Assembly (NCBI RefSeq): GCF_024713945.1
Contig: NC_134680.1
Coordinates: forward strand, 7,003,501 to 7,067,500
DNA from: Dermatophagoides farinae
Lineage: Eukaryota; Arthropoda; Arachnida; Sarcoptiformes; Pyroglyphidae
Direction of reading: 5' to 3'
Length of the DNA stretch: 64,000 nucleotides
Both the position numbers and the translations under genes were made by a program. The stretch's first letter is position 1. Each line of letters begins with the position of its first letter. The notes below the pieces were generated by a model that ran no database searches, had not been told where the DNA came from, and saw only the letters and a program-made list of their open reading frames with translations. Positions 55,302 through 64,000 of the stretch are shown one piece after another.

Positions 55302-57261
55302 ATGGAACTGCCGTACCTTGTGCATCGAAAACTAAGATTGTAAGTTGATTGATTTGAATCAAACACAATTGACTAATTGTGTGTGTGTGTGTTGTTATAT
55401 TGATTATCCACAGCTACGAAACGCCAGAATATTTTTATCTAATACCCGTCGATCGGTCTGGATCGAATGGCCAAGCTCTGAGCATCAATCGAGTGACGAA
55501 TGAAATGAATCTTTTCGATGGTGAGTATATACGATATGCTTGCTAGCTTTGCTACTCAACTTTTGGCTTTTATGTGAGCAGATAGTGAAGCCATTGAACG
55601 ATCAGTGTTTGCCGATATTTGCTACGGAATAATGGGCATCATACGGCTCATTTCTGGCAATCATCTCATATTGATAACTGAAGCTAGTCTGGTCGGTGAA
55701 ATCTATTCACCCGGTGCCATTGTCTATCGGATGGAAAATGTCCGTATCATTCCGTACAACGATACGAATTCAGCGGCGAGACAAACAGTGATGAGTGATC
55801 AACAGAAAGAGTACAATAATCGCTATTTGCTGATGCTTGAATCGATATTGCGAATGCCGTCATACTATTTTTCCTATGTCTACGATCTTTCATCTTCATT
55901 ACAGCGAACGAACCGACAACCGGGACAAAGTCGTACGCTCATACAATCAGCCAACATGGAATTCGTATGGAATGGTGCATTGTTAAGTCAATTGATGGCA
56001 GAACAAAAGTTTCATTATTTCTGTCTGCCCATCATCTGTGGATTTGTGGCCATCTATCAGGATTTGATCAAACAACGTCAATTTCGATGGATTCTGCTTA
56101 GTCGTCGAAGTAGGAACCGATGTGGTACTCGATGGTTTGCCCGTGGAATCAACACCGATGGTCATGTGGCCAATTTCATCGAAACCGAACAGCTGTTGCT
56201 AACCGATCATGATGATCGTTTCTCATTGGTTCAGATTCGTGGATCGATTCCGTTGTATTGGTCGCAGTTGCCGAATCTTCGTTATAAACCATCGTTTGTG
56301 ATACCGAAAGCGCCACACATAGAAAGCTATGGCCAACACGTTCGTCGTTTGGCACGTGAATATGGACGAATTTGTTTTGTCAATCTGATCTCAAACAAAG
56401 GATCCGAAAGTCGGCTGGGCAAATTGTTGACCGATGTTGTGAAACGATGGCAATTTCAATCGTGGCAATGACATCCCGTTTGTCAACTTTGAATGGTTCG
56501 ATTTCCATCACGAATGCAAACGACATGGATGGCAAGCGCTGTCCAATCTGATGGACCAAATTCGTTCGTTTATCGATCAATATGGTTATTATTGGTGGTC
56601 CAATTCAAACAACTGCTCTGTGCAACGAGTTCAACAAGGCATCATTCGAACCAATTGTATCGATTCATTGGATCGAACGAATGTAGTGCAGAGTATGATT
56701 GGCAAATATGTGCTACGAAAACAGATGATCGAGGCGGGAATTCTTTCCGAATTCGAAATGATTGAAAGCTATCCGCATCTTAATTCGATATTCTCGAACA
56801 TGTGGGCCGACCATGCTGATGTTTGTTCCACTCAATATGCAGGTACCGGTGCACTGAAGTCTGATTTTACCCGTACGGGCAAACGTCGTCTGACCGGTAT
56901 CATTGCCGACGGTCTGAATTCGTTGATCCGTTACTACAAAAACAATTTCGAAGATGGTTTCCGCCAAGATTCAATTGACTTGATTCTCGGTGTTCATCAG
57001 GTGGACGAGCGTGAAGGCAAACAGGTGAAATGTCCGTTGGAAGATCGAAATCTGGCCAAAATATTCTTCTTGCCAGTCCTGTTCCTGTTGTCGATGGCCA
57101 TGTTTTTGTGGTCATTGGTGTTGTATGGCAATGTATATAGCAGTATTGAACAAGCCATGTACACATTGTTCTGGTTCGCCATGTCGGCCATTTGTTTGGT
57201 CATCATGTACTACCTGGGCAACGAATTTGCCGATTACCCTACACTTGTACGAAGGCGATGA
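55302..57261 (+). CDS. SACM1L: Phosphatidylinositol-3-phosphatase SAC1 (one frame break)
   Basis: ER/Golgi membrane phosphatase that dephosphorylates PI4P and related phosphoinositides. Exons: 55302-55339, 55414-55520, 55582-57261, phases consistent. The Sac domain is continuous, with FSYVYDLSSSLQR, FVWNGALLSQL, ILLSRRSRNRCGTRWFARGI, VETEQLLL, RGSIPLYWSQLPNLRYKP and the catalytic Cx5R loop NCIDSLDRTNV. The conserved CSTQYAGTGALKSDFTRTGK block and DGLNSLIRYYKNNFEDGFRQ follow, then two C-terminal membrane helices (LFLLSMAMFLWSLVLYG and LFWFAMSAICLVIMYYLG). In the last exon the frame jumps by one base between about 56420 and 56473; removing one base restores a 607-aa protein of normal length. 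No splice sites explain the jump. Confidence 0.9.
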
Positions 57262-57383
57262 TTACCTATCAACATTATTAACATGGACACACAATGGATT
57301 TTGATTTTAATTTATAATTTTAAATTTTTACTCGGCCCATGTTTGATGATTAAATTGAGCATTTTATCAATTGAATTGCAACT
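57262..57383. other. Convergent 3' spacer, Sac1 / ENOPH1-like
   Basis: Only 122 bases separate the two stop codons, so the 3' UTRs very probably overlap. Only weak ATTAAA-type signals are visible. Confidence 0.5.
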
Positions 57384-58214
57384 CTAGACAAATTCAATGT
57401 CAGTAAATGTTCGTGCAATGGGAATGTCGCGGCAAATCTCCAACGCTTGATCAACAGCGGGACCATGTGTCAACACCAGAATGACATTCATACCGGCCTG
57501 TTTGGCTGCTTTGCCTTGTTCGGCCGATTTCGTTAGAAAGATAACGTCGGCCAGACTTTGACCAATTTTGGCTGCCACTTTGGTGAATGTTTCCGGGTTT
57601 AATAGTGGTCCGATCGATGTGTCAAAGTGGTCGTCGATGACCAGATTTAGATCTCCATGCGAAGTTTTCGACATGAATTTTCGGCTTGCTTCGGCCCAAC
57701 CATTGGACAGTATGTACAGTTTGATTGCTTTCGTATTCTTCCATCGTTGCACTGTGATGGCCACATCTGAATACACGGGTGTGGACAGTTTGTTGCGGTC
57801 ATAGCCATCGAACCAGACCTGGAAACGGAAGAAAGCATACGCCTTGGTCTCTTTCTCATTGTCCATACAATACTGGATGTAACGACAGACTTGTTCGATG
57901 GCATCCTTTTTTCGATTTCGCGAAACAGTGGTGCTTGGACTTTTCATTGATGAGCTACTAACGCTGCTTTGGCTGTTGTTTTTTTTTGAACTTCCCATCT
58001 GGATTTTCGGGGCTTTCGAATCTTTTTCTGCAGCTTCTGCCAATTTCTTCACTGCTTCTGCACATTCGGGTTTGGACCAATTGTTTTCGAGGTAAACACG
58101 GTAGGCGACCTTGAAATAGGGTATCAATAGCTTTTCGACAAATGATTCACGGGCCACAGTGCCAGCAATGTCAAACAAAACGGCGTTTGGTTTTTTTACT
58201 TTAACTTGAACCAT
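57384..58214 (-). CDS. Enolase-phosphatase E1-like protein, predicted catalytically dead
   Basis: It is related to ENOPH1/MASA, the HAD-superfamily enzyme of the methionine salvage pathway. Single exon, 276 aa, close to the family size. Shared blocks include KPNAVLFDIAGTVARESFV, the region around HFDTSIGPLLNPETFTKVAA and VIFLTKSAEQGKAAKQAGMN. The catalytic set is largely lost: motif I DxEGT reads DIAGT (Asp15 kept, the acid/base Glu is Ala17), the motif III Lys in the family DTKIG is Ser (about residue 200), and motif IV LTD is LTK (about residue 229). Motif II is present as SNG. A Ser/Lys-rich insert (about residues 70-105) replaces a less biased segment. The frame is clean, so this is a conserved-looking pseudoenzyme or neofunctionalised paralogue, not a decayed gene. 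Function unknown. Confidence 0.85.
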   Translation of the reverse strand: MVQVKVKKPNAVLFDIAGTVARESFVEKLLIPYFKVAYRVYLENNWSKPECAEAVKKLAEAAEKDSKAPKIQMGSSKKNNSQSSVSSSSMKSPSTTVSRNRKKDAIEQVCRYIQYCMDNEKETKAYAFFRFQVWFDGYDRNKLSTPVYSDVAITVQRWKNTKAIKLYILSNGWAEASRKFMSKTSHGDLNLVIDDHFDTSIGPLLNPETFTKVAAKIGQSLADVIFLTKSAEQGKAAKQAGMNVILVLTHGPAVDQALEICRDIPIARTFTDIEFV

Positions 58215-58477
58215 ATTCCTAGCAGTGATATGTTTCCATGTTCGGACATTGCTTTCATATGATATGCAGCCAATTAGATTGTGATTAGATTAAAATGTTT
58301 TAAATTAAATTAAATCATCAATCATTTCATTGTTCCATTATTGCATTGTTTCAGCACAAAAAACTTTCCGTCAACAACGAATAGGGAGAAACTTTCCATC
58401 CATGCTACACGTGACCACAACATTCAAATTGATTGATTCATTTTATTAGTAAAAAAAAAAGAAAAAAATTGAAATCC
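58215..58477. promoter_or_regulatory. Bidirectional promoter region, ENOPH1-like / WDR18
   Basis: A 263-base gap between divergent start codons, including a poly-A run at about 58451-58468 just before the WDR18 ATG. Shared promoter activity is inferred from layout only. Confidence 0.5.
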
Positions 58478-60350
58478 ATGGCCCGAACTCAGGTATGACC
58501 TCCAATTTGACACATTTAGATTTGCATTTCAAATGTTTATTGTTTTGACATGAAAAGGTTGCGATAAGTACGCCAATGTGTCCATCGGATGGCGGTGATT
58601 GTATTGCCGTTTGGGATGTGAGTACGGGCAACATGCTAAGTACGTATCGATCATCAACCAGCCAACTTATACCGCGACATTGTATCGATCGAATTGGCTA
58701 CCAATATCTGATAAATGGTTATCAGAATTCTCCGTTGGTTCACGTTTGGTCATTGGATGGAAAAGATCGTCTGCATTTGAAATTGATCCTTCCAGGTAAT
58801 GTTGGAGCATTGTGTGTCACAGCGGACGGCAATTACTGTCTCACGGCTATTGATACACGTTTGTATATTTGGCAATTGGCATCCGGATATTTATTGGCCG
58901 TACTTGATGGCCATTATCAGCCGATTCGTGTGGTCAGAGTGACCAATGACCAGTCATATTTTATCACTGGTGGCGATGATGGTATCATTTTGATCTGGAA
59001 TCTTGCCAAAGTAATTGTGCCAGATTCTCGACAATCGTTTTCAGTGGTCGATGGCCATTCCAGTCGCTTAGAGCCGGATCGGACAATCACAAATTCATCG
59101 ACTGCAATCATTGACATCCATATTGGTCATGGAGGGGGGCCAAACGGTCGTTTTGTTGTTTGCAGTGAACAATCATCTACAGTGAAAATGTATCAACTGC
59201 CCACCGGAATTCATTTGGCTTCGATAACGTTTCCACAATCGATTGTATCGGCCGTTATGGATCGTATGGAACGAGCTTTATTCGTAGGATCGACTAATGG
59301 TCCTGTCTATGAAGTTTTGCTGTCTCGAGTTTGGCAACAAACGCAAAGAGAAGGTGACCACCAATCAGTACACTTGGATTTATCATGCATAGATGATGAT
59401 GATGATGAAAAATCGTCCGATCAGAATAGACAAGTGATGATCGGTCATACACGAGCCGTATACTCAATGGCCATAACAATTGATGGCCAAGCATTGTTGA
59501 CTGGATCACAAGATCAAACGATTCGTTTGTGGCACATTGGCAGTCATCAATGCATGCGAACTGTTCACTGCAAAGGACCTGTATCGAATCTAATGGTATG
59601 GCCCAGTATGGCTGGTCTGTTTCTCTTGGATTCGCTTGAATCAAGCAATTATTCCCTGAACAATGTGGATAACAATCAGATAGATCCTTCGCTATCGAGT
59701 TCGAACACTGGATCATTGGCAAAACGTCGACGAGGTAAATTATCTCCAATCTCCAGCAGCATCTACTCGAGGTCACAATCGATTGAGCAGACATTGAGAA
59801 CGTTGCCGAATCCTTCGAAACCGATATGTTCCGTCTTTCAACGTGATGTATTTCAACTGCGATTCAATCCAATTAGTCTGATCCAGTCAAACAGGCGTGG
59901 CCAGCCACAACAAGTGGAACCAACAGACGATTCTGGCCTGGTGAATGCATTCGATCATGGTGGCTGCCTTTGGACACGAAACGATCAAACATCGGGCCGA
60001 GAATTCTGGCCCGCAGGATGGTCCACCTTTATGATGCCATACTTGGATGAATGGCAACATTGCAACCAGGTTCGTAATGATTAGTGAATAGTGATTAGTG
60101 ATTAGTGATTATTTAATGATTTTTATTGCAGAAATACTTGTTATCCGATTCAAATGAAAAGTGCAATCAAGAAAATGGTGTTCATCGGACGAATGATATC
60201 CACAATGACCATGGCGATGATGGGGTGATTTCCAAGTTGCGACAAGCCAACCAGCAACTATATCAGTATGCCATCGAAGCGATATTCGATGGCCAGTCCG
60301 CCGATTCGGTTACCGGTGGCCACGTAGAATGCATTGAGCTGAACGAATAG
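58478..60350 (+). CDS. WDR18: WD repeat-containing protein 18 (Ipi3 homologue)
   Basis: Component of the Rix1/PELP1-TEX10-WDR18 complex needed for 60S ribosome maturation in the nucleus. Exons: 58478-58492 (15 bases, MARTQ), 58558-60069, 60132-60350, giving 581 aa. The tiny first exon restores the WDR18 N-terminal pattern (MARTQVAISTPMCPSDGGDC, then VWD). The propeller blades show WDR18-specific sequences: KLILPGNVGALCVTADGNYC, LYIWQLASGYLLAVLDGHYQ, FITGGDDGIILIWNLAKV, VVCSEQSSTVKMYQLPTGIH, VGSTNGPVYEVLLSRVW, GQALLTGSQDQTIRLWHIGS and HQCMRTVHCKGPVSNLMVWP. The C-terminal part is longer than in vertebrates, with Ser-rich sequence, and ends in a short helix (ISKLRQANQQLYQYAIEAIF) corresponding to the family's coiled-coil tail. 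AATAAA at 60535. Confidence 0.9.
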
Positions 60351-60534
60351 AAAAGTGCACGATTTACTTGATTATGTTGACTCCATGCACATTGAATTTG
60401 ACTGTTTTGCTTTGTGTCATGGTGGGCTGGCCGGTTAATTGTTCGCTTGGCATAACTTTGAGTTGGTTCCATCTGTGTGTATGTTGTATATGAGAATGTG
60501 CATAACAAAAACATGTTAGTGAATTGTAATTGTA

Positions 60535-60540
60535 AATAAA
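60535..60540 (+). terminator. Polyadenylation signal of WDR18
   Basis: AATAAA 184 bases after the WDR18 stop, immediately before a TG microsatellite. Confidence 0.55.
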
Positions 60541-60544
60541 TAGA

Positions 60545-60567
60545 TGTGTGTGTGTGTGTGTGTGTGT
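60545..60567. repeat. (TG)n microsatellite between convergent 3' ends
   Basis: About 11 TG units directly after the WDR18 AATAAA. On the plus strand a GT-rich tract here is placed as a downstream element of the polyadenylation site would be. Confidence 0.9.
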
Positions 60568-60578
60568 AGAAACTTGGA

Positions 60579-60584
60579 TTTATT
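60579..60584 (-). terminator. Polyadenylation signal of the mucin-like gene
   Basis: Minus-strand AATAAA 49 bases past the TGA at 60634 that ends the predicted tail exon. Its presence supports that exon being the last one. Confidence 0.6.
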
Positions 60585-60633
60585 TTTGATGATGAAATAA
60601 AACAAATATATAACCAAATGGGACAAATTTGGG

Positions 60634-63600
60634 TCAGAATCGTTGTATGAATGATGACAGGGTGAATTTCGGTTTAGGAGCTGCATCAACGGGCTTGTTG
60701 TCTGTTTGGGATTGTTTGACTGCCATGCAAGGGTGAACAAGTCGATTCTTGAGCAATGACCAATAATAACGGGCTCTATCCACTAATTGTTGGCCAAAAG
60801 TGGTTTGCTCACCAGTAACCGATGATGAGGATCGTTTTTGGCCATATCTAAATTATTCAAAAGAATCTTCGGTCACAATTGATTGTGATTGAGGTGATTG
60901 GATCGAGGGAAATGTGTGAATGAGTCAGATTCAATGTTATTCAATGTTACTATATACGATAGACTATGCACGCATCATATCGATTTATTGGGCCATAACT
61001 AATGGTCAATGAACAATTTGATTGGACTGAAATCGCTTGAGAATAATTGAATATATTGTTATGGATAATGGCGAGTTTTGAATGTCAAAATGCAATTCTA
61101 TCGTGCTTGGTTTGCGTGTAAATGAGAGATTTTCGTTGAAATGAAATGCCATAATTGCGATATTAATTTATGACGACCATGATGATGATGAGGGTGACAG
61201 GAATGGGGTCTCCACTAGTTTTGGGCGTCATGTCGATCAGATGGCCAATCGATCACCAAAGCCACCATTGTCTTGGGAGACCATCACGATGAGTTGACCT
61301 TGACTTTCGGAATCTGTTTGGTTCGGAATTTGTTTTGGTGTGTGTGTGTGTGTGTGTATTTTCAATGAAAAATTGATTCATTTGAAATCATTGACAATCG
61401 AATGGTTTAATGGCCAAGCTAAATTTAGTTTATGACTATTTCATATGCTTGCTCTAGTTCTCGTCTATTGCTAGCCAGAATGTTTTACGTGATGATTACT
61501 CACATCATTTGGTTAGTTTAGCAGATTGGTAGTTTGGGAATGCAAAAAAAGCAATTAAAGACTTACGAGTAAAATGCAATTGCGGCCACCATGACAAACA
61601 TCAATGAACCGAGAGCAATGAGTGCTCCGATCAGACCAACCTGAACACGGGAAAGTTGTTGATGTGGACGATGAGCTGTCGGCGGATCATGCTGATTCGA
61701 TTTGAGTGAATATGATTGATGACCCCCCAACTGGCTATTTGTTGTGGATTCTTCGTCTAATTTCGATGCATCGGCTGTTGTTGAGGTTGTGGCGGTGGTG
61801 GTGGTGGTTGTGTCATCGAATTTGGATCTTAAATCTTCGGATGGTGAATGGTATCTAGGTGGTGGGTTGGCTGTCACCGATTCCACCGATTCGATGTCCT
61901 CATCCACTTCGTACTCACTTTGTTTTGGTGGTGAATTTGAATTAAAATGTGGCCTTAACCTTTGATTCATGTGTGGTGATGATGAGGAAGCCTTTTTGTA
62001 TTCGATATCTGGACCTTCTTCTTCAGTGATGAATGAGGCATCGGAAAGGCATTCAGTCACACCGACACATTCGTCAGTCATCAGTGGTTGATTGCAGTAG
62101 AAATAGTTATTGGGATTGGGCCGGTAGTACCGGATCATAGGCGGCGGCATGTCGGTTGTGGTTGAAGAGGAACTGGTTTCCAATTGGAAAACGCCATCTT
62201 GCATTTGATCTTGCAAATAGGATTGCCGCTCGAAAAGACGACACATGCGACTCATTCGGCCATCACAGTGAATGATACCATCACCGAAACACTGAAACTG
62301 CGAACGTCGAACCATGGCCATAGTTGGACATATAGCGTCGATACGGAAATGGCATTGACGGGGAAGAGGAGCGGCCATCATTGTTGGCTGACCGTGCGGA
62401 AATCCAGCCGATAGTCCGGGTGGCGGTGGTGGCATGAACGGTATGATTGGCTGATTGTATGGCGCCGGTGGTTGATTAATAGGCGCCATCATAGGATGGA
62501 ACATTGGAATCGGAGGACCATCCATCAAGTCTTGGTCATGATGATGATGTGGCCGAAATGTCTCCATCATCGGATGAATTGGCATCGATGATGATGGAAT
62601 TTCAGTGCTGGTGCTGGTGCTGGTGGTGGTTGTAGTCGGTCGACGTTTGAAATAACCATCGTCCCGAGAATCATCATACTGTGGTGGAAGCGTAATGGTC
62701 ACTGTTTCATAGACGTCTTCACGCTTGGCTGTTGTTGGCGTTTCAGTGGTTTTGGTGGTGGTCACACCTTCATCGATCTCTACATTCCCGTCGCCCTCCA
62801 CCGCCGAATCTGTAACTTCTTCTTCAACTTCTTCTTCTTCTTCTTCTGTTATGGGTGTTGTCGTTGTGGTTGTGATTAAATCCGCATTTCTGACGTCTTG
62901 TTTTTTCCTTCTGTTTAATTCTTGGGCCGTCGTTATAATAGCAGTGATGGTGGTGGGTGATTGTGTTGTTGTCGTCGTCGATGTTGTGGTGGTGGTTGAA
63001 GATCGTTTCGTTGGTTGGTCATAGAGCAAAAGTTGTTGATCGCCACTTTTCACCTTAACCTTGACTAGCGTTTTCTTTTTCTTCTTGCCAAACTGATTGG
63101 CTCTACCCTCGCGGACATCTTTGTTGATGGGAGTGGCTGTAGTGGTTGATGTGGCCGACGGAAAAGTTTTCACCAAGGTGGTCAATCGAGGCACAGCGGT
63201 TGTGTGGTGGCCATTTCCACCGAGACGAATGTACTTTTTTCTGATGTTTCGGATGCTGGTGACCGATGGGGATGGTGCGACATGGTGTGGTGGAGCGACA
63301 GTAGTGGTAGTCAGATTGAGCCGTCTGTGGCGATTGATGATAATTTGGGTGAAATTGATGAATCGAGCTTGGCGAATGTTTTCGTCTGAAGATTGTTTCG
63401 GTGTTGGCGCTATGAACAGAGAACGGGATGGCGATCTTAGTAATGATGCTCGACCTGGTTGCTTTTCCATATCGTCATCGTGGATCATTTCGATATTTGA
63501 AACGGTGGACAAATCCTCTAGCGACATGATCACTTCCGTGTTGTTGATTGTTAGAGCTATGGTGTGGTGTTTACACAATGATGATGATCAATAATGACAT

Positions 63601-63867
63601 GATGATGATGTCATGCACAAATCACTTACCATGATGAATGGCCATGTTTATCGAGATGATCATGATGGCCAACCACAATGATGACATGGATGAATGTGGT
63701 GTTAATGATCTTATCCAGTTTGGCCATATCGAACATTTTGTCCACCTTTTGTTGACGTTATTATTATAGTCCATTGTTGGATTAACATGGTGGTGAGGGC
63801 CATTTTCCACTGACGCGATAATTACTGGGTCCATTTCCGGACTTGACTGATGATCAGCAGCTTTCAT
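60634..63867 (-). CDS. Thr-rich mucin-like single-pass membrane protein
   Basis: No named family recognised. Exons in transcript order: 63867-63630, 63556-61567, 60847-60634, GT-AG with matching phases, giving 813 aa. Exon 1 ends in a hydrophobic signal-like segment (SSLWLAIMIISINMAIHH), and translation may really begin at the internal Met just before it. The long ectodomain carries many Thr runs (mucin-like, probable O-glycosylation), a poly-Glu run, a Pro/Met-rich stretch (PFMPPPPPGL) and a small Cys-containing block (about QCHFRIDAICPTMAMVRRSQ to CVGVTECLSD). A membrane helix VGLIGALIALGSLMFVMVAA follows. A naive reading stops at TAA right after AFYS, but that TAA is inside a perfect GTAAGT donor; the 214-base last exon adds a basic cytoplasmic tail (YGQKRSSSS... 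to LSSFIQRF). The insect/mite cuticle or gut-lining role seen for such proteins is only a guess. Confidence 0.75.
60848..61566 (-). other. Intron of the mucin-like gene
   Basis: A 719-base intron on the minus strand with donor GTAAGT and acceptor TTTAG. It contains one TG microsatellite (about 61339-61357) and no coding signal that I can support. Confidence 0.6.
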
Positions 63868-64000
63868 CTGGAAAAATGATGGGAAAAGGTTGAATGAACC
63901 AATGCATACAGTGATAATGATTGTTTGTAACAGGATACCAAAGGGGTTGCCTTTGTTGTTTGAGAGGATGACGATGGAATGATTGTTTCGCTGATAATTA
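63868..64000. other. Upstream of the mucin-like gene, window edge
   Basis: Presumptive promoter or 5' UTR of the mucin-like gene. No feature is distinguishable in the 133 bases available, and further upstream exons could lie outside the window. Confidence 0.4.

Follow-up and report, generated by a model that had tools for sequence, protein, structure and literature searches.

A rewritten catalytic site shared by five enolase-phosphatase E1-like genes of the mite Dermatophagoides farinae

Results

An E1-like gene next to a WDR18-like gene

The window is the 64,000-nucleotide stretch of Dermatophagoides farinae DNA that was analysed, and positions without a locus name refer to it. The gene under study is an open frame on the minus strand that starts with an ATG at 58214 and ends with a stop at 57384 (Table 1). 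An earlier note on this DNA, made from the letters alone, had described a clean 276-residue frame with homology to enolase-phosphatase E1 (ENOPH1), and both points hold. The window protein matches the acireductone synthase family model TIGR01691 (E 1.3e-30, 106.5 bits) and human E1 (PDB 1yns; E 1.5e-27). Its TIGR01691 score falls short of the equivalog cut-off of 128.1. Against HAD_type_II, the model used for L-2-haloacid dehalogenase, it scores 20.7 bits and falls short of the cut-off of 125.4. No signal peptide was seen in the protein when it was judged by eye.

Table 1. Coordinates of features in the window and at other E1-like loci. Intron positions are alignment columns.
Feature	Sequence	Position	Strand	Remark
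E1-like gene (putative pseudophosphatase), intronless, 276 aa	window	57384..58214	-	
Motif I remnant Asp15-Ile16-Ala17 (canonical D-x-E)	window	58164..58172	-	alignment
Ser-rich cap insert, residues 74-98	window	57921..57995	-	alignment gaps; nearest sister L009 lacks the insert
Motif II S170-N171-G172-W173 (human S-S-G-S)	window	57696..57707	-	alignment; Ser170 after predicted strand 165-169
Leu204 in the motif III Lys column	window	57603..57605	-	alignment
Motif IV F-L-T-K (226-229), Lys229 in the metal-binding Asp column	window	57528..57539	-	alignment; Lys229 after predicted strand 224-228
Intergenic, head-to-head with WDR18-like gene	window	58215..58477	.	
SAC1-like phosphoinositide phosphatase gene	window	55605..57261	+	Syja_N E 3e-73
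Intron, phase 2	L016, L033	column 190		
Intron, phase 0	L016, L014, L017	column 238		
Intron, phase 1	L016, L014, L033	column 287		
E1-like locus	L010	1917..3155	+	
E1-like locus	L013	1698..2687	-	
E1-like locus	L015	1089..2297	+	
GC-AG intron in chosen splice	L015	1715..1864	+	
E1-like locus	L033	1265..2242	-	

The divergent WDR18 neighbour proposed from the sequence is a WDR18-like gene on the opposite strand, whose start lies about 263 bases away by eye. It has a WD40 domain match, and PDB WDR18 (E 4.7e-47) ranked behind a generic WD40 protein. The SAC1-like gene in the window is open in two frames, one ending at 56471 and the other continuing to 57261; the apparent frame change could be an assembly indel, a short intron or a broken gene. 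Third-position G+C is 0.47 in the window gene, whereas the remaining ten E1-like loci have 0.17-0.31. High expression was considered as the cause and rejected, since the rise is regional and four neighbouring frames also reach 0.40-0.50. The part of the window from 56000 to 64000 has a G+C of about 0.43, compared with 0.32-0.42 per 4 kb over the remainder; the end of contig C4 is about 50-58 kb away.

Catalytic residues of the window protein

HAD phosphatases bind Mg2+ through the nucleophile and the motif IV Asp, with the motif III Lys balancing the charge. Residues were read from alignments with human and yeast E1 and with 80 prokaryote homologues, the best 80 of 381 confirmed relatives. The canonical rows (n=84) were the human protein, the mite proteins L014, L016 and L017 and the 80 prokaryote proteins. 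Asp, Glu, Thr, Lys, Asp and Glu occupy positions 15, 17, 19, 204, 229 and 233 in 84/84 of these rows; conservation of the first three is selection-biased because DIEGT stood in one of the two patterns used for the prokaryote scan. Neither pattern contained the motif III Lys or the motif IV Asp.

The window protein retains Asp15, Thr19 and Ser170. It carries Ala17 for Glu, Asn171 for Ser, Leu204 for Lys, Lys229 for Asp and Gln233 for the second motif IV Glu, and so departs from canonical E1 (ENOPH1, MtnC; TIGR01691; PDB 1yns, 1zs9, 2g80) at the Glu, the motif III Lys and the motif IV Asp. The alignments agree with the earlier note on the retained Asp15, the change of DxE to DxA and Lys229. That note was right about the loss of the motif III Lys but placed it at Ser200, when the column holds Leu204. 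Its claim that only Asp15 remains was correct for Asp15 and too strong in its "only", as Thr19 and Ser170 are kept too, and the replacements at 171 and 233 go beyond those it listed. From these residues it is very likely that the window protein does not run the E1 reaction.

Structure prediction gave a confident E1 fold for the window protein, with a HAD core and an E1 cap. In the predicted model Asp15 follows strand 11-14, as expected of a Rossmann-like HAD core, and Ser170 and position 229 also follow strands (Table 1). The model is drawn toward the canonical fold by its input alignment of 37 canonical proteins. Predicted pLDDT across the Ser-rich insert region is 74 for residues 71-80, 59 for 81-90 and 62 for 91-100. 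Asp15 and Lys229 probably form a pair in the pocket.

The E1-like family of D. farinae

A group 5/21 allergen locus in the genome (62.4 Mb, 22 contigs) encodes a protein identical to solved Der f 21 across its final 111 residues, which makes D. farinae very probable as the species. The genome was searched five times for E1-like loci, using four proteins and one family model as queries. The searches gave 10, 11, 10, 10 and 11 E1-like loci with a union of at least 11, and the counts are lower bounds. Gene models were made by choosing splice sites by eye, without RNA. Only L016 (205.8 bits), L014 (163.8 bits) and L017 (158.4 bits) exceed the TIGR01691 cut-off, and all three keep the canonical D, E, K and D; in motif II of L017, A-T replaces S-S. 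The eight altered loci of the 11 all fall under the cut-off with 71.2-116.5 bits (L010 and L013 scored without their tails).

The altered loci differ among themselves. L013 and L015 keep D, K and D and have Tyr and Trp, respectively, for the motif I Glu. They also change Thr19 to Val, Ser170 to Ala and the second motif IV acid to Lys. The two are 28% identical to each other and both end in Cys-Cys, which might be a lipid-anchor signal. The GC-AG intron of L015 belongs to the chosen splice; inspection by eye turned up no alternative that keeps the frame. In L033 the four canonical residues D, E, K and D are replaced by Asn, Ile, Gln and Asn, so the nucleophile is lost too. Judged from these residues, L033 is taken to have lost its site by another route than the clade of the window gene.

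The earlier note had suggested, as one alternative, that the lineage lost methionine salvage and reused the protein, and had named a second ENOPH1 with intact motifs together with MTNA, MTNB and ADI1 as the genes to look for. Three intact-type E1 genes are present (L014, L016 and L017). MtnA (429.9 bits), MtnB (203.4 bits) and ARD (145.5 bits) were found over their cut-offs; the ARD match covers positions 30-157 and contains one in-frame TAG. A MTAP-like gene reached 260.4 bits, short of its cut-off of 274.85. These pathway genes elsewhere in the genome argue against a lineage without methionine salvage.

Five genes share the rewritten site

The window gene had been treated as a single case in the earlier note, which missed that it belongs to a clade of five within the 11-locus family. 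A maximum-likelihood protein tree was built from 23 rows (11 mite, human, yeast and 10 of the 80 prokaryote proteins). The window gene, L009, L010, L011 and L012 form a clade with support 100/99, and L013 and L015 form a second clade with support 100/99. The window gene and L009 are sisters (support 100/100, identity 61%). Branching of the other three members is weak (85/82 and 86/81), and the protein tree and the codon tree disagree on it. Deeper branching is also weak, and the L033 branch is very long. At its C-terminus L010 extends into a Ser-rich tail, about 150 residues long, that the other four members lack.

All five members share a site pattern in which motif I reads D-x-[AST], motif II S-[NQ]-G-W and motif IV FLTK or YLTK, with Leu or Pro in the motif III Lys column. 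Asp15 and Lys229 are present in 5/5; position 17 holds A/S/S/T/T, position 171 N/N/N/N/Q and position 204 L/L/L/L/P. The five are invariant at 56 of the 276 positions. At nine of these (F14, R130, F135, T145, W173, M181, T209, K229 and T249) the clade residue occurs in 0/84 canonical rows, and in seven cases a different residue is nearly uniform across those rows (79 to 84 of 84). The nine clade-specific invariant positions look like re-fixation rather than decay, and by this alignment the clade site looks as if it was rebuilt and afterwards held. When viral contigs were scanned with the clade profile, 26 stretches fit a pattern and none was a relative.

Selection was examined in the five paralogues over 242 gap-free codons. 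Omega = 1 was rejected in 10/10 pairs (2dlnL 72.0-161.0), which rules against neutral evolution. Omega was estimated at 0.005-0.014 pairwise and at 0.016 and 0.019 on the tree; silent sites are saturated, because distances reach the bound of the fit, and the estimates can be read only as far below 1. A dN/dS near 1, which the earlier note had set against its proposal, was thus not seen in these paralogue pairs. Its proposal of selection for something besides E1 catalysis is supported by the rewritten site common to four paralogues and by the rejection of omega = 1.

Introns were compared among the E1 genes by alignment column and phase. L016 has three introns, each matching at least one other E1 gene (Table 1), and none of the three is found in any of the five clade genes. 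In the models no intron interrupts the window gene, L009 or L010; L011 and L012 have one common intron, at column 172 (phase 2), which is peculiar to these two. The clade genes are spread over five contigs (C4, C10, C1, C9 and C2). Because the L016 introns are absent from the clade and its genes are dispersed over five contigs, the clade founder would most simply be a retrocopied mRNA of an ancestral E1 gene. L013 and L015, which lie outside the clade, likewise lack the three introns, so intron loss may be frequent in the E1-like family. The absence of introns from the clade could thus reflect intron loss instead of retrocopy.

Discussion

The results taken as a whole are probably best explained by a five-member clade of E1-derived pseudophosphatases that arose by retrocopy, has a metal-free pocket and serves a male role. 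The mRNA of an ancestral E1 gene would have been retrocopied. In the founder, the Glu and the motif III Lys would have disappeared and Lys would have replaced the motif IV Asp; the founder would then have been copied to further places in the genome. The positive charge would thereby move, going from motif III and appearing anew at motif IV, where Lys229 probably stands in for Mg2+ and pairs with the retained Asp15. The resulting pocket would be metal-free and roughly charge-neutral, and the E1 substrate would no longer be hydrolysed. A stable fold would be kept, and binding of a ligand or partner may persist. The job of the protein would lie in males, most likely inside germ cells, to judge from the sister species discussed below.

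The clade may still encode an enzyme, a metal-independent HAD hydrolase with Asp15 as nucleophile and Lys229 in place of Mg2+ or of the lost Lys, somewhat like L-2-haloacid dehalogenase. This alternative is unlikely. L-2-haloacid dehalogenases, which are metal-free HAD proteins (PDB 1jud), keep the motif III Lys, and the mite clade has Leu or Pro there.

A somewhat less likely alternative is that the clade tunes or scaffolds active E1 or another salvage protein, for example as the inactive partner in a mixed complex. Pseudoenzymes that regulate active relatives have precedents, and likely inactive E1-fold paralogues occur in one genome with three intact-type genes. Human E1 is monomeric, however, and a scaffold leaves the five copies and the male bias of the sister species unexplained.

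It is very improbable that the genes are relaxed, decaying duplicates that are open by chance. Lost catalytic positions and the 8/11 loci under the family cut-off would suit decay, but omega = 1 was rejected for every pair, the frames are intact at saturated silent distance and nine positions have been re-fixed. That the catalytic codons reflect a sequencing or assembly error can practically be dismissed: the apparent frame change in the neighbouring SAC1-like gene means that local errors may exist, but matching changes in four paralogues on other contigs are evidence against error here.

Among the matches listed for the open-licence literature, by title and the start of the abstract, E1-like genes belonging to a mite itself were treated only in PMC12105342, and nothing linked ENOPH1 with a pseudophosphatase. 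The main text of PMC12105342 reports 10 E1-like genes in D. pteronyssinus and finds nine with expression raised 11.9- to 103.3-fold in males. It gives a comparable finding for Psoroptes ovis and counts 10 genes in Sarcoptes and 11 in Leptotrombidium. It names the genes acireductone synthases, EC 3.1.3.77, and leaves the reasons for the expansion for further exploration. The terms "active site", "catalytic residue", "pseudoenzyme" and "retrogene" are absent from that main text. D. pteronyssinus and D. farinae are sister species with E1-like families of 10 genes and 11 loci, and the two sets, likened at the level of the family, are probably the same expansion. The expansion is therefore known already; what appears to be new, within the open-licence literature searched, is that much of it has lost the catalytic site. 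By analogy with the sister species, a male germ-cell role for the window protein is somewhat more likely than not.

The sperm leucyl aminopeptidases (S-Laps) of Drosophila may be the closest known functional parallel. According to PMC6388916 this family is expanded and testis-specific, and its metal-binding and catalytic residues have changed; the two members tested were inactive as recombinant proteins, and S-Laps are structural in sperm. Like the S-Laps, the mite clade is part of an expanded metabolic-enzyme family, has replaced metal and catalytic residues and keeps frames under selection. The S-Laps belong to another enzyme family, and inactivity was assayed for two of them, whereas that of the mite clade is read from residues. 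The comparison is also limited because sperm of D. pteronyssinus are aflagellate (PMC12105342).

Much of the E1-like expansion probably does not serve methionine salvage, because in D. farinae 8/11 loci are without one or more of the residues that 84/84 canonical rows keep. Tentatively, the clade might represent a charge-swapped, metal-free HAD pocket acting as a male-specialised receptor for an anion or phosphate, or as a metal-independent hydrolase, with much of the mite E1-like expansion consisting of pseudoenzymes; we regard this fuller picture as possible though doubtful. If much of the expansion lies outside methionine salvage, the need of male mites for so much enzyme becomes a testable question about a pseudoenzyme family, to which a possible parallel with the Drosophila S-Laps is added. 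The fixed Asp-to-Lys swap at the metal site offers a small model case of how a pocket may pass from metal-dependent to metal-free. EC numbers inherited through family membership can mislead for entire expansions.
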